Of a stretch of DNA of 64,000 bases, positions 24,824 through 40,599 are shown one piece after another. The stretch covers positions 1 through 64,000 of the forward strand of contig JAKFWA010000107.1 of the NCBI GenBank assembly GCA_021732995.1, written 5' to 3'. The notes under the pieces are model-generated. The model was not told where the DNA came from. It did not search any database and worked only from the letters and a program-made list of their open reading frames with translations. The position numbers were made by a program, and so were the translations under genes. Numbering within the stretch: the stretch's first letter is position 1; every line of letters begins with the position of its first letter. This DNA comes from Planctomycetaceae bacterium. GTDB lineage: Bacteria; Planctomycetota; Planctomycetia; Planctomycetales; Planctomycetaceae.

Positions 24824-27800
24824 TCATTGAGAACTGGCTTTCGGTCGCTGGCTGGGAGCGGCCTGCATCTCGGCGACGAAAGACAACAAGTAAGGATGCT
24901 TCTGTAGTATTTGCTCGAGTAACTTTACGTCTTCAGGTCGGCCCACTTCGGCAATGACAAACCCAGCGGCGGTGGCCAGTCCGAAGTCGGAGTCAGCGAT
25001 GAGGGGCTGCACGGCTGCGATGACAGGATCCAGATTTCGAGCTGCTTGTCGTCGCAAAGCAGCTCGACCGAGACTTCGCGTTTCATGATGCCGGAGCAAC
25101 TCGACAAGCGGACTGAGCGCACTTTCCGAGTCGATTTCGGAGAGTGCCTCAGCGGCGGCTTCGGCCCGGAATGGCTTTCCCGTTTTGAGCTGCTCAACCA
25201 ACTTAGGAATGGCGGCAGGTCCCGCTGATTTCGCGTAAGTCACGGTCGCAAAGCATGCGACCGCAATGTTCGGGCTATCAATCAACTTTAAGCACGCCGC
25301 TGCCACCTCGGGATGTCCGGCGACCCCAAAGTCTTTCCGTTTCATCCAAGCCAGAGTTTGTGACTGAAGCAGCGCATCTTCGGTTTCAAGTGCGGTGATG
25401 GCTTTAGCAAGATCGCCTTCCTCAACGGCATCGCGCCGCCTGATATAATTGAGAAGAGCATTAAAAAAGGGGGCTGTCTCACTCCGAGCAGGTGGGTAAT
25501 TTTTACGATTCTCGATCAATTCGATCGCTCTATCAGCGGCCTTCGCGACCGCAGGATTTCCATTGGCGAACTTTTTCACGACATCCAATGAGTCAACTGT
25601 CCCACGCACACTCAAGATCTGAAGAATCGCCAACGACAGGCCGTCATCTTGCGATCCTTGCAGCATCTCCACCAGAAGAGCTTGATGGTTCTCGGTCCTC
25701 CAACCCTGCAGCGCCTGACTGACCAATGGTCTTAGTCGGGCATCAGTCAGCCCGCGCATCACCAATATCACATCACTGGGTTCGCCGGCAGTCAGAAGCA
25801 AGTCACCGACGGCAGCTCGAGTTCGCACGTCAGCAGCTCCTAACAGTCCTCGAGCAATAGTCAGCACGTCGTCGCGGCAAGCGGAGTCGACTCGCAATAT
25901 CGCTGCCAGTGCTAGAATCGAGGTTGATTGCGCCATTTCCCACTGACTCAACCCTGGAGTTGACGAAGGCGGAGAGAGACAAAGCGCTCGCAAGATTGGT
26001 GCAACTTCGGGTCCAAGAACGATCTCATTTGTTTTCCAGCTTTGAGGCAACGCGAGTGCTTTTTGAGCGTCGAGCGGAGACACCAAGTACGCTTGCGGAC
26101 ATAGAGGCAAATAATCTTTCGAAGACCGAAAGATCGAGTCGATCGTGACTTGTGCTCGCTCGCCGGTTTTCGCGGCTTCGTTCAGCTTTCCCACGATACT
26201 TGGACCGATGGATCTCTTGTCCCCCGCCGATCCGTCAGGTCGAACCTGGCCGTTCAATATCTCTGCCGAGATGACGACGACGTCCTGATCCGACGAAGTG
26301 ATCGATTGAGCGGCTACAAGTGCCCAATCGACATCGGCGTTCGAGTAGCTCGGCCATTGCTTATTCAGGAATGCCGCGATCATCGCATCACCGATCTGAG
26401 GGTGCGTCACCTTTGAAAGCTGTTGAAACCACTTCTGCGGAATCTTGCCGTTGTCGATCGCTAAGCCAGAGACAACTTCGGTCATCGATCGTGATCCCAA
26501 CTTCGCCGACAAGTGAATGAATGCGTTTATGTTCACTGGGGAAGCCCAAGTTTCGATAGCCAGAGCAAATGGCTTTCGGAACTCGGGCGGTACATCGAGC
26601 TTCAAGAGTTGGGTTGTCGTCAGACCTTTGCCTGCCCTTCCAAGTTGGACGTCGTTGCCGTCGATTCGCACTTCGCCTTCTTGAGCGAGCACTAGGACTC
26701 GCTTCCAGATTGATTCAATGGCGGCAGTCAGAGCCGGTGAAGTGCGTGGCTTTGCTGCATCCAAACTCTGATCCTTAAGAGCCAGCAGCTCCAACAGTGC
26801 CCGCAGTCCGCCGTGTTGACCATAGAACTCGAAAGCGATGTCGGTCTTGGCATTTTTTGCGCCGCTCTGCCACTCTTCGTCTGGCAGCCCGAGCAGTGCG
26901 TCGCGAATCAGTTTTGGCTCGCGGCCTTGAGTAATCGCATGCTCATAGGCATTTAATAGAATATTCGCTCGCAAGTGAGGTTCAAGTTGAAGCATGTTCC
27001 GAAGAGCTGCCTGCGCGACGCGGTCATTAGGATGCGAAGCCATTTTTGCAGAGAACTCGTAATTCCAAAAAGTGGTTGTGCGCAGTAGGACTTCAACGCG
27101 GTCGTCCTTCATGGCTCGCGCCACGATTTCCTGTTGAGTCCCACGAGGCAACGTACTTTTTTTTGCGATGATCGCGTCCATGACACTCAGCAAGTCGGAC
27201 TCCGATCCCTCGAAAGACCCCTGCGCAAGCTTCTTATGATTGACCGGTCCAGCTAGTTCGCTCACTGGCGCGTCGGTCGGCAGGGTGCCGTAACGTGTGA
27301 TTTCAGGACTATTTGTTGGCAGCGCAACTGAAGTCAGGAACGCGATCAGCGCACATCCCACTGATACTTTCGCCGCCAGTTCGCCAGTGCGACTAGAAGT
27401 CGACCGTGCCTGATCGGTATCTGCCGAAGCGACAGTCTTCTGAGTCCGACGTTTCCGATCGGTCGGCTCATCCTCGTAGACATCTTCAAGGTCGTCATCG
27501 CCCTCTGCGTTGAAGTCGTCTTCATCCAGTGCTGCATCGTCTGAGTCGACTTCGCCATCATCGACGTACTCGAGGTCTTCAACTTCGTCCTCCGGCTCAG
27601 CGGTCGTTTCCAAACTGATCGGCGGCGTCTTCGTCGAGCGTTGCAAGCTGTAGGTCTCTTCTGAGGTTGTCTCGGCTTCTTCGGGCGGTTCCGCAGGCGA
27701 GCTTTCACGCTGAGGAATTTCGATCCGAAACGACTGTGAGCAGCCAGGACATTTCACTAGCGAGCCAATCAACTCAGGGCGGCTTATCCGTATACGAGCA

Positions 27801-27841
27801 TGACAGTGAGGACACGTCGCACGAAGATTTGCAGAAGACAT
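24824..27841 (-). CDS. Zinc-ribbon, acidic-linker, single-TM protein with HEAT-like repeats
   Basis: I start the protein at 27841 (MSSANLRATCPHCH), giving 1005 residues. It opens with a CPHC..CPGC zinc ribbon (residues 9-35), like many planctomycete membrane proteins. A strongly acidic, low-complexity linker (about 45-130) and one membrane helix (CALIAFLTSVALP, about 150-168) follow. The remaining ~800 residues are helical with repeated patterns such as VAAACLKLIDSPNIAVACFATV and RAEAAAEALSEIDSESALSPLVELL, typical of HEAT repeats. These usually form protein-binding scaffolds. It precedes another zinc-ribbon membrane protein by 40 bases. Function unknown; a joint membrane complex is an inference. 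Confidence 0.82.
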   Translation of the reverse strand: MSSANLRATCPHCHARIRISRPELIGSLVKCPGCSQSFRIEIPQRESSPAEPPEEAETTSEETYSLQRSTKTPPISLETTAEPEDEVEDLEYVDDGEVDSDDAALDEDDFNAEGDDDLEDVYEDEPTDRKRRTQKTVASADTDQARSTSSRTGELAAKVSVGCALIAFLTSVALPTNSPEITRYGTLPTDAPVSELAGPVNHKKLAQGSFEGSESDLLSVMDAIIAKKSTLPRGTQQEIVARAMKDDRVEVLLRTTTFWNYEFSAKMASHPNDRVAQAALRNMLQLEPHLRANILLNAYEHAITQGREPKLIRDALLGLPDEEWQSGAKNAKTDIAFEFYGQHGGLRALLELLALKDQSLDAAKPRTSPALTAAIESIWKRVLVLAQEGEVRIDGNDVQLGRAGKGLTTTQLLKLDVPPEFRKPFALAIETWASPVNINAFIHLSAKLGSRSMTEVVSGLAIDNGKIPQKWFQQLSKVTHPQIGDAMIAAFLNKQWPSYSNADVDWALVAAQSITSSDQDVVVISAEILNGQVRPDGSAGDKRSIGPSIVGKLNEAAKTGERAQVTIDSIFRSSKDYLPLCPQAYLVSPLDAQKALALPQSWKTNEIVLGPEVAPILRALCLSPPSSTPGLSQWEMAQSTSILALAAILRVDSACRDDVLTIARGLLGAADVRTRAAVGDLLLTAGEPSDVILVMRGLTDARLRPLVSQALQGWRTENHQALLVEMLQGSQDDGLSLAILQILSVRGTVDSLDVVKKFANGNPAVAKAADRAIELIENRKNYPPARSETAPFFNALLNYIRRRDAVEEGDLAKAITALETEDALLQSQTLAWMKRKDFGVAGHPEVAAACLKLIDSPNIAVACFATVTYAKSAGPAAIPKLVEQLKTGKPFRAEAAAEALSEIDSESALSPLVELLRHHETRSLGRAALRRQAARNLDPVIAAVQPLIADSDFGLATAAGFVIAEVGRPEDVKLLEQILQKHPYLLSFVAEMQAAPSQRPKASSQ

Positions 27842-27980
27842 TGTCGAACCGACTCCGTGTATCAATTGTTACAGAGCGATAGAGCCTTACCGCGAGGGTC
27901 GCCCAAAAGCATGACGTCGTCTATTGCTCCAGAGGAATGCTAAGGGCGGCAATTCTAAGGTGCCCTAAGCTCGACTTTTG

Positions 27981-29260: not shown

Positions 29261-29925
29261 ATGATGTATCTGGGAATCGACCAGCACGCACGCCAACTGA
29301 CGATCTCGCTACGAGACGAGAATGGCGACGTAATCCAGGCACGGCAGGTGTCGACGCAGCCCGAGAAGGTGCAAGCCTTCTTCACCGCGTTGACACGCGA
29401 CTGTGCCGCGCGGGGCGAGTCGTTTATCGCGGTGGTGGAAGTCTGCGGGTTCAACGATTGGCTGCTCAAGCTGTTGCAGGATTATCGCTGCCATCGTGTG
29501 ATCCTCATCCAACCCGAAGAGCGCAAGAAGCAGAAGACCGACCGGCGCGATGCGTCGTCTCTGAGTGAGTTGTTGTGGGTGAATCGAGCGCGTTTCCTGG
29601 CCGGTAAGCCGGTACGTGGCTTGAGGCAGGTGGAGATTGGCAGCACGTCCGATCAAGAGGACCGGCGGCTGACGACACTCCGACAAGAGGCCAGCCAGGC
29701 TCGCGCGCAGATCATCAACAACATTAAGCACCTGTTGTGACGGCATAACCAGCAAAGGAGCCTGCCGACGAAGACGTTTCCCATACGGGATGCGCCGGGT
29801 TGGCTCAAGTAATTCAGCTTACCGACGATTGATCGACTGGAGATGAATCATCCGCTTGTGAATCTCGAACAGGCGCAGCAGCGGATCTTGGACTTGGAGA
29901 GCGGTGCGGCGAGAACAAGCAGGCC
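29261..29925 (+). pseudogene. IS110-family transposase, degenerate and truncated
   Basis: The first 159 residues are intact: MMYLGIDQHARQLTISL carries the first Asp of the DEDD RuvC-like domain, VVEVCGFNDWL the Glu, and KTDRRDA the last Asp pair. A TGA at 29738 and a TAA further on interrupt a continuing match (PTKTFPIRDA, LPTIDRLEMNH, LEQAQQRILDLE) up to about 29925. The C-terminal transposase-20 domain with the catalytic Ser is absent, so the element is dead. A CAGGAGC ribosome site precedes the start. Confidence 0.85.
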
Positions 29926-30102: not shown

Positions 30103-30855
30103 TTAAGTACTGATCATCGCATACGGAACCTCATTGCCTCGCACAGCCTGCAATAGCGAATCAACGCGCACTGGTTTCATGAACCACCCATCGAGAGGAA
30201 CGCTGTTCGACTCAAACTCACTCCGTGGTGAACCGCTCACAGCGAAGACTCGCAGCGCATGCAGGCGGATGTCGTCGCGGACATTCTTCAAGAACGTCGG
30301 GCCATCAATTTCAGGCATGCGCATGTCGAGCAGGACGAGGTCGGGCAGTTCGTGTTCATGAAGATAGTCGAAGGCTTCGCGGCCATTGCTGGCAGTAGCG
30401 ACTTCAATGCCACCTAAACGCAGGCACGTGGCAAGAAGTTCGCGCTCGTTAGCTTGGTCCTCCACGATTAAGACCTTAGGCGGAGTGCTATCGACGACCG
30501 TGTCTGGGGTAGATTGTTCGAGGTCCGTCAGTTCAGAAAACACTTCCGCGAGATTTCGCTCGGGATCGCCCGCTTGGCCAAGTTCTAGTTGGCGTTGCAA
30601 AATTTGCAGCTTGAGCATTAGGTGATTGAGCTTGTTGCGCCATGTATGGCGCCGCTCGCGGTCTTTGGAGGAAACCGTGAGGCTGTTTCCCGTGGCGCCC
30701 GTCTGGGCCAGCACTTCATCACGCACGACGGGAACATCATCGGGAGCTTCGATTCCCAAGCGCGTAACCGACCCGCGCGAACGTAGGACTTCGATGGCGA
30801 TGCCGAGACTTGGGAACAAAACTTTTTGGCCGGGACGACGTGAGAGAACTAGCAT
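30103..30855 (-). CDS. CsrA - DHp-like helical hairpin - response-regulator receiver fusion protein
   Basis: The start at 30855 is fixed by an AAGGAAGG ribosome site and by MLVLSRRPGQKV, the CsrA N-terminus. Residues 1-50 are a complete CsrA domain that keeps the RNA-contact residues (L4, R6, R7 and R45 in APDDVPVVRDE). Residues 66-118 are helical, with a HTWRNKLN motif (His70) that recalls the H-box of histidine kinase dimerisation domains. Residues 126-240 are a full receiver domain with acidic pair E132/D133, phospho-Asp 177 (LLDMRMP), S207 and K227. CsrA binds GGA motifs in mRNA leaders and alters translation. The fusion suggests phosphorylation-controlled RNA binding. The neighbouring hybrid kinase is a natural partner. 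CsrA works as a dimer, which the helical hairpin could support. Confidence 0.9.
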   Translation of the reverse strand: MLVLSRRPGQKVLFPSLGIAIEVLRSRGSVTRLGIEAPDDVPVVRDEVLAQTGATGNSLTVSSKDRERRHTWRNKLNHLMLKLQILQRQLELGQAGDPERNLAEVFSELTDLEQSTPDTVVDSTPPKVLIVEDQANERELLATCLRLGGIEVATASNGREAFDYLHEHELPDLVLLDMRMPEIDGPTFLKNVRDDIRLHALRVFAVSGSPRSEFESNSVPLDGWFMKPVRVDSLLQAVRGNEVPYAMIST

Positions 30856-31027
30856 GGACGACCTTCCTTGGAAAAGACAAGACGCGTGTACTGTCACCAA
30901 GTGACAGTCACAACGTCCGGGGGAGCGTCTTGCTCATCCGACACTGCCGTGTGTGCCCCAGACCGAGCCATCAGGAATCTAGCGGCCGGATTTCAGAGTT
31001 CAAGATCAATTGAGGCGGCACAGCAGA

Positions 31028-34000
31028 TCATTTCGTTCGTCCGACCTTCACCAGGAGGGAATGGAGTTCGGCTCGCTTCAGAGGTTTGACGAGATGCACA
31101 TCGAAGCCCGCCGCGATCGCTTTCTCGCGATCAGCTGGAAAGCCGTAGCCAGTAAGGGCGACCAGGTACGGAATCGGAGTTAGTTGGTTGGCGCGTATTC
31201 GTTGCGCAACCTCGAAGCCATCGAGACCGGGCAGGCCAATGTCGATGAGGGCGACTTCGGGCCGCCACTCGAGAATGAGTTCGATGCCTTGAAGTCCATC
31301 AGCGGCAGCTCGAACTTCATGGCCGTCGAGTTGCAACAGCGATTGCAACGTGGAGCGACTGTCGGCGTTGTCTTCGACGATGGCGATGCGAAAGCAGCGT
31401 GATTTGTCACTCGCCGCAGAGGGCTCAGCATGACGCGGTGGAGTTACCGCGGCGCAAGTCAACAGTGGCAGACGAACCGTAAATTCACTCCCTTGGTTGT
31501 GACCGGCGCTTGCTGCGACGACCGATCCGCCGTGCAGTTCGACGATCGCTTTGACGAGCGTCAGGCCGACCCCCATGCCGCCGTCGGCGCGGTCGAGCGT
31601 TTCGTTGGATTGGACGAAGAGATCGAAGACTCTGCCGAGCATCTCCACAGATATGCCAACGCCGTTGTCTTTGACTCGAATGATCGCCTGGCCGTCTTCT
31701 TCGCTAAGCCGGACGGAAATCGTGCCGCCTGGGGGCGAGTATTTGGCCGCGTTCTTCAACAGGTTGATGAGGACTTGCTGCAAGCGCGCGGGGTCACCGT
31801 CCACGCGAGCGGCTGAATCGATGCCAATCACATCGAGGCGTCGCTCGCGAGCGGTTACGAGCGGTTGAACCGCATCCATCGCATCTGAAATCACCTCGGA
31901 CAGCAAACAATCTTGGCGGCGGAGCACGATTTTGTTTTGCGTGACTCGCGCTACGTCGAGCAGATCGTCCAAGAGAAGCCGCATTTGTTCCGATTGGCGG
32001 CGGACGACCTGGGAGGCGGCGTAGCTGCGCTCATCGTTGCTGGTCGTCTGGTCGAGTATTTGAGCGGCATTGAGGATTGCACCGAGTGGGTTGCGCAGTT
32101 CGTGCGAGAGCATCGCCAGGAAGTGATCGCGGTTGCGGATCGCTTGCTGGAGGTTGGATTCCGCCTTCTTCAAAGGCGATATATCGATTAACGACAGGAC
32201 GACTCCGTCGAGTGCTGCGGCACTGATGCGGTATGACAGGATGCGCAGGAAGTAACAGTTGCCGTCGCGGTCATGGATTTCTTTCTCCACTGGCGTGCCG
32301 CAGTCCAGCACTTGTTGCAGCGAGTCTATCAGCGGTTCGTCGAGCAGATTCGTGAAGCCGGTGATGGGTCGCCCGATGTCCTGTGGCAGCAAGTTGAACA
32401 GCTTGCCGATTCGCGGAGTGAATCGGCGGATGCAGAGATTGCGATCGAGAAACAAGATGCCGACATCGGTCGCCAGCAGCAGGTTTTCGAGGTCCGCCGT
32501 GACTTGTGTCAGCTCTTCGATCTTGTGCTGGTACTCGGCGTTGACGGTGTATAGTTCTTCATTCACCGAGTGCAGCTCCTCGTTGGTGCTTTGCAGTTGT
32601 TCGTTCGAGGCGACGAGTTCCTCGTTCGTCGCCTGCAGCTCTTCGTTGCTGGATTCCTGCTCTTCGATCATCGCTTGCAGGTTTTCGCGCGTGTGGCCGA
32701 GTTCCTGCTCGAGAGCATGAATCTGCTCGCGCGAGGCGACCCCCAGGTCGATGGCAGCTTCGTCGCGCGGCGGCGCGTGCTGTTCCATCTCTTCAAGGAT
32801 GATGAGAAAACTCGTCAGGCCAGAAATGCGATCGTGCAACGGTTTGACCGTCAGCCGCGTCAGCGACTCGCCACCCTCTTCGGACGGGACGCGAATGCCG
32901 GTGAAGACGACCGGGACCAATTGCTTCTCCGCGCGCGCCAACGCGCCGAGCAGGATCATCTTGAGTTCGCTGTCGACGAGCTCGAGTAACTGCGTCGTGG
33001 CTCGCCCGTCGCGAACGCGGAGATACTTGCCCGCTCCGCCAAAGCTGTGGACCAGCTCCTTGCGGTCGTTGATGAGGAAGCTCGGCGGCATGTGCTCTTC
33101 GAGCAGCCGGTCATACACCGCTTGCTGGAGGCGATCGGACGCGGCGGCGCTCGACGCATACGCCATGTTGATGCGAGGTCTCTGCGGCGGCCCGGAGGGA
33201 AGTAGCAGACGAAAGTCGGGACGCAACCGCACATCACGACGTTTGCGGTACACCTTCCAGTGGTCATCGACCGGCTCGAACTCGTCGGACAGATCGCCGG
33301 GGCTTTCGCTCGGCCCCATGAACATCACGCCCCCCGCCTTCAGGCCGAAGTGAAATAGGGAGAGCACTTTTTTCTGTGCCGACGGCTGCAAGTAGATCAG
33401 CAAGTTGCGGCACGAAATTAAATCGAGCCGCGTAAACGGCGCGTCCTTCAGCAGATCGTGCGGAGCAAACACGATCATCTTGCGAATGTGCGGCACGACC
33501 TGAAAGCCGTCTCCCTTGCGGACGAAGAATTGCTCGCGGCGTTGTGGGCTGACGGCGTTTAAAGCCTCTTCTGAGTAGATACCTACACTTGCAATGTCGA
33601 GCGACGCTCGATGCGCGTCGGTCGCAAAGATGCGCACGGTCGGCTGCCGATTCATCGTCGAGAGTTGCTCGTGAATGAGGATCGCCAGCGAGTACGCCTC
33701 TTCGCCAGTCGCACAGCCCGCGACCCACACGCGAAACTCCTGATCGTCCTCGACGGCCGCGAGTAGCCTTGGCAGTTCGTCGATTGCCAGCCGATGAAAT
33801 GCCTCGCGGTCTCGGAAGAATTGCGTGACGCCGATCAGCAAGTCTTTGTAAAGCTGATTCAGCTCAGCACTGTTCTCCGCGAGCCGCTCGACGTACTGCT
33901 CGACATCGAGCGATTGATTCAACAGCAGCCGGCGCTCAACGCGGCGCGTGACGGTGCTCGGCTTGTACTGGCTGAAGTCGATGCCATATTCGGCTCGCAA

Positions 34001-34708
34001 CATGCGAAAGATCGCCTGCAAGCCAACTTCGGGGACGGATGGCAGCTCATCGCTGCCGAGTTCCGGCGAGCGACGCAAACGCACGAGCTTAAGAATCGCA
34101 TCCGGCATGTCGGCGGCCGGCAAGACCAGATCCACGAGTCCGGTCTCGCGAGCACTGCGCGGCATCCCGTCGAACTTCGCCGACTCTTCACTTTGAGCGA
34201 CGATCAATCCGCCCGCTTCGTGGATGTCCCGAATTCCGCGCGAGCCATCGCTCCCGGTGCCCGACAGAATGACGCCAATCGAACGGCTGCCAAAATCCTG
34301 AGCCAACGAACGCAAGAAGCGATCAATCGGCAACGCGAATCCCTGCGACGGGTCTTTGTCCGTGAGAAACAACCGCCCGGCCGACTGAATCATCTCTTTG
34401 CGCGGCGGCATCAGGAAGATCGCATTCGGCCGCAGTTCGATCCCGTCTTCCACGCGGACAATCGGGATGCGAGTTCGCCGTGCGAGCAACTCATCCATCA
34501 TGCTCTTAAAGTCGGGCGACAGGTGCTGCACGACAACAAAGCAAAGCCGCGAGTCCTCCGGCATGTGCTCGAAGAATTGTTCGAGAGCCTCCAGGCCGCC
34601 GGCCGAAGCTCCGATGCCGACCACATAGAATGGTTCGCCGTTCGGGGCGACTGGTAACACTGCGTTGATTTCCAGAATTTGTTTTTCGCTCGCATGTTGA
34701 GTGTTCAT
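31028..34708 (-). CDS. CheB-CheR-PAS-histidine kinase-receiver hybrid protein
   Basis: The 1226-residue protein begins with a CheB methylesterase domain (S35, H62 and D154 form the triad: GASAGG, VQHLSP, GSDGSRG), followed by a CheR methyltransferase (about 225-490, with [15 protein letters not shown] for SAM binding). A coiled coil of repeated [14 protein letters not shown]-type heptads (about 640-720), a PAS domain (about 725-840), HisKA with [11 protein letters not shown] (about 855), an HATPase with NLLKNAAKY and DNGVGIS, and a C-terminal receiver ([16 protein letters not shown]) complete it. Such proteins link methylation chemistry with phosphorelay. No chemoreceptor gene lies nearby. 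The CsrA-REC gene follows after 172 bases on the same strand and could receive its phosphate. Confidence 0.95.
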
Positions 34709-38094: not shown

Positions 38095-40599
38095 CTATCG
38101 GTAGAAGCTGGGCTTTCTCGGCACGATGTTGAGCTTCTTGTAGGCGAAGCCGCTGTCGGGCGGGTTGTATTCGCCGACAAGGTCCATGCAGGACGTTTCT
38201 TCGAGGGCGGCTTCCATCTGTAAGCACCAGTAGGTGGCGTTCACGGTCAGGCGACGCAGCCCCTCACTTTGAAAATCCTGGGCGCTCCCCATCGTGACAT
38301 GGAAGACTCGCGCGGTGTGACCGGCATTTCCTGTCCAGGTTTTTACCCAGGCGACCGGTAGTGGCATCAGTTCGGAGTTCACCTCGTCATCGTGCTTGCG
38401 GCCCTTCAGCGGCTGACCGTCCACCAGCGGTAGACAGCCTTCGGGGAGGCCGCCACCCTCTTTATAGGTGCGATAGACATCGGAGGTGCCCCAGATATCC
38501 TTGACCCCTTTCAGAACGGGATGAGCTTTATTCTGTTCGACGATGATGCCGCGGGTAGAATCCTGCTGCCAGCGGCCATGATGGTTGCGGAAGGAACCAC
38601 CCAGCACCGCTTCTCCGAAGTCGATCTTCTTACCTTCCTTTTGGTAATCAAAACCGATGAAACCGTGATTGGCGGTCCGGATACCGATGATCGGCTTGCC
38701 AGAATCGAGATAGTTGTAGATGTGCTTCAACTGCTCGGGCGGCAGAGAAATCAGCCGGCTGAACAAGATGACGAGATCGCACTTCTCCAGATGTTCGAGT
38801 CCGGGGATGTTGTGAGTGACCGTCTTGTCCTCCCAACGAATCTTCTGAGTCGGATCGACATCGTTGTCCTTGTTCAAGCTGAAGAGGACCGTGCAGTGAA
38901 ACCCATGATGCTTGGCCAGGAGCCGCGCCAACATCGGCATCGAGTATTCGCTGCGATATTCCTGATCTGCCGCGATCAGGACGATGTGTTTCCCCGCTCC
39001 CGGCCCCTTATCACCGGAGTATGTCAGCCAGAGCGGACTTTCTTTGACTGGATGCTTAGTGGTATTCGTTCTGTGAGCGGCGGCTGGAGTTGCAGGCAAA
39101 GAAGGGATTTCATTGACGGTGTAGAACGCGTTGCGATGCAGCAGTTCTTCCTGATCGCGAGAACGCAGTCGGGCCAGGTCGAGTTCGTACACGAACCCTC
39201 GGTCGAGCTTCTCGAGAGTGACTTTGGCAGACAGTCCGTCTGCGGCCAGTGAGACTGCTTTTACTCCGGGCTTGTGCTTTTCAATTTCCGGGCCGCCGTA
39301 GCCCGCGTGGTAGGGGTGCGTAAACGCGGAGATCGAGTACGACTCTGGTGAGCGGCCAGTGATCGGTTCGACGGGTTTAGTGAACGTCACTTTGAAGCCA
39401 TCCGGCTCGATCGTGACGCGGTTGATTTCGAAGGGAGTCTTGCCGCTCCATTCGAGTCGTTCGAGCGCGAATGGTTTGATGCCTCGAACGGGCCAGCCGC
39501 GATTGGTTCCGCCACACAGCAAGTTTCCGCCTGGAGTGAATTCGACGTTGAGGATGCCTGTCGAAAGGCCCTCGCGGAATGGATAGCAGGCTCCCTGCCA
39601 GACGCCGTTGACCTGCTCGGTCGTGGCCCGCATCAGGATCGACTGCGTGTAATCGCCGAGGAACAACTGGTTTTCAAAGGGGCCGAACTTCCCCTGCGTT
39701 CGATCTACATTGAACGCGGTGATCGACCGGCCCATGCGGATGTAAGGAAAGATGACGGCGTAGGGAACCAGTTGTTTGACGTGGTCCTTTTCGGTTGCGA
39801 TGCGAGTGCCCGACTTCGGCAGCTCCGGCACAGGCCCCAACTCTGGTGAATGCTGATACCAATTAAAGCTCGCCGGATGACCGTGAAAGCTGCTCTGCGA
39901 CACGGCTTTCAAGCTACACGAACAATTCCAGGGCCCCTGGCTTTCGACATAGAACAACGCTCCGTGCTCATCGTGTCCGATCCCGCCGGGGCTGCGCAGG
40001 CCACTCGCGAAGGCGGTGGTCTTGCCGTCGGGCGCGACCTTCATGATGAAGCCACGGTTCAAGGCATGTGAGTGGTACGATTCCGACAGGCCGAGCGCCA
40101 CGAACTGGTTTCCGTCGGCATCGAGCTTCGAACCGAACGCGTATTCGTGGTAGTTCGCATATCCCCAGGCATCGGAGATGGTTTCAAAACGATCCGCCAC
40201 GCCGTCGCCGTTTGCGTCACTAACGCGAGTCAGTTCACAGCTTTGAGTGACGCGGAAGGCGTTGCCTTTCCAAGTCAGTCCGAAGATCTCGTCGAGTCCC
40301 GTCGCAAAGCGGTGAAACGACGGGATCGGCTTCGGTGCGTCCACGCCGTCCATGAGGAAGATTTCGCCGTGCCGCGTCCCGACGGCCATTCGACGATCCG
40401 GCAGTGCCGCGAAGGCTCCTGCTTCGATGACTGTGTCCTTCGGCAATGGAATGCTGACGATTGGATAGAACTCACGCTCACGCTCCTCGGTTCCCCAGCG
40501 TTCGCCGACTTCCTCGGCGCGCAGAGTGCCCCGCGCGGAGAGGGCTATCAGAAGGAGCAGGCAAACGAGTCGCAGGTAGCTACTTCTTGAGTGGTTCAT
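38095..40599 (-). CDS. Secreted beta-propeller protein fused to a ThuA-like domain
   Basis: The 834-residue protein has a signal peptide (LVCLLLLIALSARGTLRA). Residues about 50-390 resemble the PQQ-sugar-dehydrogenase-like propeller of planctomycete haem-associated proteins (AALPDRRMAVGTRHGEIFLMDG, DANGDGVADRFE). Residues about 530-790 form a ThuA-like (class I glutamine-amidotransferase-like) domain beginning GKHIVLIAADQEYRSEYSMPML and ending near QSEGLRRLTVNATYWCL. ThuA domains are linked to sugar metabolism in rhizobia, with no settled reaction. The start overlaps the end of the pentahaem cytochrome gene by 20 bases, which ties their production. Together they suggest a periplasmic oxidation system for a carbohydrate-like substrate. 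Confidence 0.85.
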   Translation of the reverse strand: MNHSRSSYLRLVCLLLLIALSARGTLRAEEVGERWGTEEREREFYPIVSIPLPKDTVIEAGAFAALPDRRMAVGTRHGEIFLMDGVDAPKPIPSFHRFATGLDEIFGLTWKGNAFRVTQSCELTRVSDANGDGVADRFETISDAWGYANYHEYAFGSKLDADGNQFVALGLSESYHSHALNRGFIMKVAPDGKTTAFASGLRSPGGIGHDEHGALFYVESQGPWNCSCSLKAVSQSSFHGHPASFNWYQHSPELGPVPELPKSGTRIATEKDHVKQLVPYAVIFPYIRMGRSITAFNVDRTQGKFGPFENQLFLGDYTQSILMRATTEQVNGVWQGACYPFREGLSTGILNVEFTPGGNLLCGGTNRGWPVRGIKPFALERLEWSGKTPFEINRVTIEPDGFKVTFTKPVEPITGRSPESYSISAFTHPYHAGYGGPEIEKHKPGVKAVSLAADGLSAKVTLEKLDRGFVYELDLARLRSRDQEELLHRNAFYTVNEIPSLPATPAAAHRTNTTKHPVKESPLWLTYSGDKGPGAGKHIVLIAADQEYRSEYSMPMLARLLAKHHGFHCTVLFSLNKDNDVDPTQKIRWEDKTVTHNIPGLEHLEKCDLVILFSRLISLPPEQLKHIYNYLDSGKPIIGIRTANHGFIGFDYQKEGKKIDFGEAVLGGSFRNHHGRWQQDSTRGIIVEQNKAHPVLKGVKDIWGTSDVYRTYKEGGGLPEGCLPLVDGQPLKGRKHDDEVNSELMPLPVAWVKTWTGNAGHTARVFHVTMGSAQDFQSEGLRRLTVNATYWCLQMEAALEETSCMDLVGEYNPPDSGFAYKKLNIVPRKPSFYR

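Follow-up and report, generated by a model that had tools for sequence, protein, structure and literature searches.

CsrA/RsmA proteins (PF02599) are global regulators of about 60 residues that ordinarily stand alone, and their known control works by sequestration, either by small RNAs, as set out in excerpts of PMC7652899, or by FliW. Two-component signalling can also end on CsrA activity, as in the BarA-UvrY and GacS-GacA systems (PMC4682653, in part). There the route runs through transcription of CsrA-sequestering small RNAs, whereas in the protein described here a receiver domain is covalently joined to CsrA. It resembles the CsrA/RsmA family in its domain match, its RNA-contact residues and the GGA hairpins at start sites that are its likely targets, and differs in being tied to a receiver, in a genome that shows no FliW match. 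An RNA-binding effector in a response-regulator setting is likewise found in the ANTAR regulators AmiR, NasR and PdtaR, in which an antitermination domain lies at the C-terminus (PMC12471899, in part), whereas the fusion has an N-terminal CsrA output and a DHp-like hairpin between output and receiver. That hairpin is reminiscent of Spo0B, HPt and the DHp of HisKA kinases in its helical form with an H-x-x-x-N-x-L motif, in its similarity to a HisKA profile and in weak SPOB_a matches in two of 62 family members. Spo0B has an ATPase-like second domain, which is absent from the fusion; here there is the hairpin only, on one chain with its putative acceptor receiver and the output.

No paper describing a CsrA-receiver fusion was found among the matches listed in the open-access literature, judged partly from titles and abstracts. 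Domain databases would show such an architecture, and the Galperin surveys of response-regulator output domains reportedly may list rare CsrA output domains. E. coli CsrA is itself tabulated as an orphan response regulator in the available portion of PMC12471899, an entry that we believe to be a mistake. The accessible excerpts of PMC12316311 report CsrA as enriched among sigma-54-linked functions in Planctomycetia and describe sigma-54 promoters of csrA in Pirellula; within those excerpts no CsrA-receiver fusion is mentioned.

Architecture and spread of the CsrA-receiver fusion

The fusion gene lies on the minus strand at 30103–30855 of the window, the 64,000-nucleotide stretch of Planctomycetaceae DNA that was analysed, and encodes a 250-residue chain composed of CsrA, a DHp-like hairpin and a receiver, as defined by its open frame, Pfam matches and full-length relatives. 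The frame opens with an ATG at 30855, closes with a stop codon ending at 30103 and has the N-terminus MLVLSRR; an alternative TTG start is listed 15 codons farther out, and relatives start at the position of the ATG instead. Relatives with the same three-part layout share the start M-L-[VI]-L-[ST]-R and are open across both junctions, which speaks against a frame error; because the layout recurs in 62 aligned members, a frame error at a domain junction was rejected, as was a chance fusion or assembly join. All 62 distinct members match both CsrA and the receiver in Pfam (E up to 1). The AlphaFold2 model, built on the 62-sequence alignment, consists of CsrA strands, an antiparallel hairpin and a receiver (mean pLDDT 88.2), with a low pTM of 0.63 that makes the modelled placement of the domains relative to one another no more than tentative. 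Among the 50 best Foldseek matches to the complete model, all but one, a poor superposition, belong to receivers or response regulators.

The CsrA domain (residues 1–51, 30703–30855, minus strand) scores 50 bits in Pfam PF02599 against a cut-off of 27, and solved CsrA chains are matched at E 8.6e-5 and weaker. Its alignment with E. coli-type CsrA spans 51 residues and contains one inserted residue, which brings R45 of the fusion onto position 44. L4 and R44 are critical for RNA binding by CsrA according to excerpts of PMC7652899, and both RNA-contact residues, Leu4 and Arg44 in E. coli numbering, are present in the window fusion as L4 and R45. Conservation is strong at these contacts, with R6 and R45 in 62/62 distinct members and L4 in 53/62; in the second set, of 66 named loci, R6 is kept in all 66 and R45 in 65.

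The receiver (residues 127–239, 30139–30477, minus strand) is equally clear, with 65.4 bits for Response_reg over residues 128–239 against a cut-off of 30.2 and a Foldseek match to solved receivers at E 1.6e-10. E/D132, D133, D177, S/T207 and K227 are each kept in 62/62 members, and D133, D177 and K227 in 66/66 named loci, so that the phospho-acceptor Asp177 (codon 30325–30327, minus strand) is invariant in both sets. The initial annotation had proposed, without giving a strand, a 250-residue chain with a complete CsrA domain and its RNA contacts, an H-box-bearing helical segment and a full receiver with all phosphorylation residues, and each of these elements is borne out by Pfam, the AlphaFold2 model and the relatives; as for the refuting observations that it named, all 62 members keep R6, R45 and the receiver Asp, and no junction frame error was encountered among them.

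The fusion is real, widespread in its class and clearly constrained. Searching 294 genomes of the phylum gave full-length relatives in ten, each of them belonging to the window's class, which contributes 21 of the genomes searched. The rows listed for the other 273 genomes (E 1e-12 or better) start at residue 100 or later; as nine candidates were scored per genome, this search does not prove that the fusion is missing from other classes. A class-wide profile search of 397 genomes found a full-length member in 96, under nine family labels (full-length meaning a start at or below model position 4 and an end at or above 229; with six candidates per genome, members may be missed). Matches at E 1e-25 extend to 114 of the 397 genomes, partial and receiver-only rows included. 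The GTDB contig scan yielded 72 loci. Their titles name planctomycetes or read simply 'bacterium', with two exceptions: L192 and L193 belong to other groups, and their matches lie outside the CsrA part. Six loci with no full-length fusion by the frame criterion of the linkage analysis (L181, L186, L187, L190, L192 and L193) were dropped, leaving the 66 named loci, whose organisms overlap the first set. Named hosts include Blastopirellula marina DSM 3645, Rhodopirellula baltica, R. europaea, R. rubra, Rubripirellula obstinata, Thalassoglobus neptunius and Lacipirellula limnantheis.

The window genome (9.39 Mb) contains 14 CsrA matches, 13 of them besides the fusion, a large paralogue set, and no FliW match. 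At one of its loci (L042, G000:C44; CsrA match 38967–39119), about 40–50 extra residues separate apparent N-terminal and C-terminal CsrA parts. Next to the fusion gene in the window, a 159-residue frame on the plus strand (29261–29740) matches only an IS110-type DEDD transposase domain and is probably a truncated copy. Elsewhere in the window, a 1013-residue frame on the minus strand (24824–27865) has, by eye, a zinc-ribbon-like N-terminus (CPHC...CPGC) followed by a part that looks like helical repeats.

The central hairpin and His70

The middle segment (residues 63–115, 30511–30669, minus strand) is modelled by AlphaFold2 as two helices, 63–92 and 98–115, with pLDDT of 73 to 93 in blocks of residues 61–120. 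Its H-box-like motif HTWRNKLN, pointed out in the initial annotation, contains the candidate phospho-acceptor His70 (codon 30646–30648, minus strand), which is kept in 61/62 distinct members and 65/66 named loci. Asn74 is kept in 58/62 and 60/66, position 76 is L or I in 62/62, and R73 is found in 46/62. The residue directly after His70, position 71, is acidic in just 26/62 members. In kinases an acidic residue at this position serves autophosphorylation, and its loss fits a domain that would receive phosphate rather than make it.

The DHp-like nature that the initial annotation ascribed to this segment is supported by profile comparison. A hairpin profile of 60 sequences, from which two of the 62 members were left out (the L115 pair, which lacks the motif), was aligned by hhalign with a profile of 55 HisKA stretches (54 frames) from the kinases of the named loci, giving a score of 39.4 and a probability of 89.5 with the H-boxes in register, HxLRNxL on HELRNPL. 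Column-shuffled hairpin profiles scored at most 14.0 in 100 trials, although shuffling also destroys helix periodicity, and three other segments of the same kinases scored 1.2, 3.6 and 1.4. Weak Pfam matches to HisKA occur in 13/62 members (E up to 1 allowed, best 1e-4) and to SPOB_a in 2/62 (best E 0.16); the window fusion (P0001) has neither match up to E 1, and no HATPase match in Pfam. Hpt (PF01627) was considered and set aside, as it is missing both from the matches of the window fusion up to E 1 and from the 25 listed out of 45 families that members matched; the hairpin may nonetheless work like an Hpt though it is not classed in that family.

Searches against solved structures gave the DHp assignment no support. 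By sequence, the hairpin profile found CpxA only at E 5.3, and its best match was a designed protein (E 0.00067) over profile residues 18–50, off the H-box, whose three pieces each matched at 2.8 or weaker; the other matches were helical repeats and further designs. In the fold search, the hairpin by itself had 75 matches up to E 10, all of them weaker than E 0.001, with a CsoR best at 1.4 and a DHp of PhoR at rank 12 (3.7). Support for the assignment therefore comes from the hhalign result, the weak Pfam matches and the motif, and on this sequence evidence we interpret the hairpin as a DHp that has lost its ATPase.

Across 59 genomes of the class the hairpin profile gave 22 rows, of which 19 are in known fusions and one in a frame (G266) that the class-wide search matched from position 40 onwards only; the remaining two are weak (E 3.8e-6 and 8.5e-6) and lie in other long frames. 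Beside the fusion gene of L165, a 352-residue frame (477–1532) combines an extra N-terminal part, an HxLRNxL hairpin and a receiver with no CsrA match, which suggests that the hairpin may travel with the receiver. Paralogues in L115 (635–1450 and 3766–4587) and L183 have kept CsrA and the receiver while their H-box motif has decayed or been lost.

Hairpins at the start sites of the fusion genes

The ribosome-binding site of the window fusion, CCAAGGAAGGTCGTCC (30856–30871, minus strand), places a GGA in a six-base loop closed by CC/GG, with only two pairs. Across the family, the leaders often carry the start-site GGA within a small hairpin loop, above a stem that varies with pairing kept (GGT/ACC, GGA/TCC, GGC/GCC, GGG/CCC, GAT/ATC and others). 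Of 62 fusion leaders examined, 60 have the GGA, and at least three Watson-Crick pairs surround it in 35 of these; the same measure on 200 shuffles gave a mean of 11.5 and a maximum of 20. Among the 67 named fusion leaders, which overlap the first set, the hairpin is present in 34 of 63. With the GGA chosen regardless of pairing, 30/60 leaders qualify, with nine stem types, against a mean of 13.9 and a maximum of 25 in 1000 trials in which the 3' halves were dealt among the sequences. Other genes of the same loci, fusions removed, gave 33/172 (464 examined), 18/184 (466 examined) and 38/317 under three start choices, all control starts being mechanical guesses. An earlier control set gave 32/187, and a handful of fusion genes whose start was misplaced may be among it; the Fisher value for the excess over this set, 2.6e-9, ignores relatedness, and the leader counts generally are non-independent for the same reason.

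The pattern is not uniform, as 25 of the 60 leaders have fewer than three pairs and a few of the 35 use an unusual GGA or register; the longest hairpins belong to the leaders of L014, L087 and L103. Single-leader folding energies are mildly better than those of shuffles (z −0.44 to −4.17 in six leaders). For the linked CheB-CheR kinases, 35 starts at guessed start codons were examined, of which 20 have a GGA and three show the hairpin; in the window genome, a script located 11 stand-alone csrA starts, five of them with a similar hairpin. The six-base ANGGAN hairpin loop is an RsmE target, CsrA binds at two sites, one of them on the glgC ribosome-binding site, and csrA is autoregulated by translational inhibition, all according to excerpts of PMC7652899. 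Taken with these described targets, the start-site pattern predicts that a CsrA-type protein binds the leaders. Autoregulation of the fusion through its own start-site hairpin, with which the clean controls agree, is accordingly predicted, and we regard it as reasonably probable. A two-site CANGGANG arrangement, seen in 7/62 fusion leaders (L014, L072, L074, L077, L079, L084 and L089) and 2/514 control genes, was set aside as evidence, given that five of the seven fall in one subgroup and that the control still held fusion genes.

Farther upstream, seven distinct leaders of the window's subgroup share a conserved element of about 52 bases (30913–30964, minus strand), about 58 to 109 bases before the start codon in the window, which can be drawn as an outer stem enclosing two hairpins and may act as RNA or DNA. 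Its upstream CsrA-like loop carries CANGGANG, with GGA, in six of the seven leaders and has GGC in the window. No such element was seen in L127, and Rfam gave no match up to E 10 in 30700–31200. A dispersed repeat was rejected, the genome having one exact site and seven matches with at most one mismatch, against eight for a reversed-pattern control. Between the element and the start, a perfect inverted repeat, ACTGTCAC-CAA-GTGACAGT (30890–30908), folds as a hairpin and is not kept as such in aligned relatives.

The neighbouring hybrid kinase and a proposed phosphorelay

The next gene upstream of the window fusion, 172 bases away on the same strand, encodes a 1226-residue hybrid kinase with the domain order CheB-CheR-PAS_10-HisKA-HATPase-receiver (31028–34708, minus strand). 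A frame with HisKA and HATPase lies within 500 bases of the fusion in 44/66 named full-length loci, and 35 of these 44 kinases carry CheB and CheR. The arrangement varies, with the kinase upstream on the same strand in 19, downstream on the opposite strand in 14, upstream on the opposite strand in eight and downstream on the same strand in three, and further HisKA-HATPase frames in the same loci number just six in 864 kb. These counts come from stop-to-stop frames with the window's own kinase and fusion as queries, so that the scan may have passed over distant kinases, and the gap lengths, some of them negative, are approximations. Among the 22 loci without a kinase within 500 bases, five have one farther off and 17 have none; nine of the 17 lack 3 kb on one side and eight have it. 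L122, the closest named relative (79 percent identity), has no such kinase in 8 kb on either side. A pairing that survives such rearrangement argues strongly for a functional pair, and we consider it highly likely that the fusion pairs with the linked kinase, which in the window is the likely cognate partner; the partnership would presumably work by phosphotransfer.

The composition of the linked kinases bears on the route that phosphate would take. A strict receiver Asp motif is found in 36 of the 44 and in the tails of seven more, while the kinase of L153 runs into another frame. Four kinases were scanned fully in Pfam, those of the window and L124 being of the CheB-CheR-PAS type and those of L154 and L139 carrying DUF4118, and all four end in a receiver. 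His70 is present in 44/44 kinase-linked fusions and in 21/22 of the remainder. The window genome has six CheB matches, two of them in long frames (1229 and 1524 residues), one being the neighbour, and 14 Hpt matches, all of them on contigs other than the window's. Phosphorelays use a histidine-containing protein to move phosphate from a receiver of this kind to the final one (PMC12471899, in part). With a receiver at the end of the linked kinases, the next step calls for a histidine carrier, and as no Hpt match lies on the contig, we infer that the relay may pass through His70. The initial annotation had suggested phosphorylation gating of RNA binding and a relay role for His70, and had missed both the linked kinase and the CsrA-type hairpins at the ribosome-binding sites; the hybrid kinase next door in two thirds of the loci makes both suggestions more likely.

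The model that we favour treats the fusion as a response regulator with CsrA as its output domain. The hybrid kinase would autophosphorylate on its DHp histidine and pass phosphate to its own C-terminal receiver, from which His70 of the DHp-derived, ATPase-less hairpin would take it in the manner of HPt or Spo0B and hand it to Asp177 of the fused receiver. Phosphorylation would then rearrange the CsrA dimer and alter how firmly it holds GGA hairpins in mRNA. Its first predicted target is the ribosome-binding site of the fusion itself, with negative autoregulation as the outcome. This two-protein, four-step phosphorelay ending on translation, with one chain serving as phosphotransferase, response regulator and mRNA-binding effector and controlling its own ribosome-binding site, is given a probability of about 0.4. 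The broader proposition, that the fusion is an RNA-binding CsrA response regulator working with the kinase next door, whether or not His70 takes part, is probably correct, while the chances that His70 carries phosphate are evenly balanced. The layout, its conservation, the likeness of the hairpin profile to DHp, the kinase linkage and the start-site hairpin pattern are observations; phosphotransfer between kinase and fusion, the route through His70, the direction of the RNA effect and the assignment of autoregulation to the fusion rather than to a stand-alone CsrA are the presumptive parts of the model.

The main competing account is a simple response regulator, in which the kinase DHp would phosphorylate Asp177 directly and the hairpin, left from a lost kinase, would be a dimerisation device or an Asn74-based phosphatase element, with no phosphate on His70 in the forward path. 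A HisKA-like hairpin with no ATPase and mostly no acidic residue after the His is what such a remnant would look like; a DHp hairpin would dimerise, and Asn at the +4 position (58/62) would fit a phosphatase role. The CsrA part would be served by such a device as well, as CsrA acts as a dimer (excerpts of PMC7652899). We nevertheless find this account rather unlikely, since His70 is the most conserved hairpin position (61/62), beyond what dimerisation seems to need, and since 43/44 linked kinases end in their own receiver, which calls for a histidine carrier next, on a contig with no Hpt match. Far less probable is that RNA binding is not the function of the fusion at all, its CsrA part merely dimerising or docking a partner under receiver control: RNA binding is predicted from sequence, which leaves room for such a view, yet R6 and R45 are invariant in 62/62 members, L4 is kept in 53/62, and CsrA-type hairpins stand at the family's own start sites.

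Two further alternatives concern the RNA side only and touch single elements. The start-site hairpins could be targets of stand-alone CsrA and so be uninformative about binding by the fusion, a reading compatible with the proposed relay except for its autoregulation step. The 13 other CsrA matches of the genome and the hairpins at 5/11 stand-alone csrA starts speak in its favour; sequence cannot separate the two binders, a shared recognition code would let both bind, and we are doubtful that the hairpins serve stand-alone CsrA instead. For the upstream leader element of the window's subgroup, a DNA operator or promoter rather than an RNA structure is possible, though we lean away from it: inverted repeats are present, and of the 16 predicted pairs just three vary on both sides, chiefly because of one divergent sequence; against this, the divergent L074 retains the enclosing stem, though with changes. 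A crude scan of the leader region for a sigma-70-type promoter found none, which neither helps nor hurts the DNA interpretation much.

If the proposed relay is correct, CsrA would be the direct output of a phosphorelay in many Planctomycetia, a covalent two-component route to translation control alongside the known control of this global regulator by sequestration. A signal could then directly change which messages are translated, probably including that of the fusion itself, and CsrA control in these bacteria could be put to the test, the kinase partner and an RNA target both being defined.
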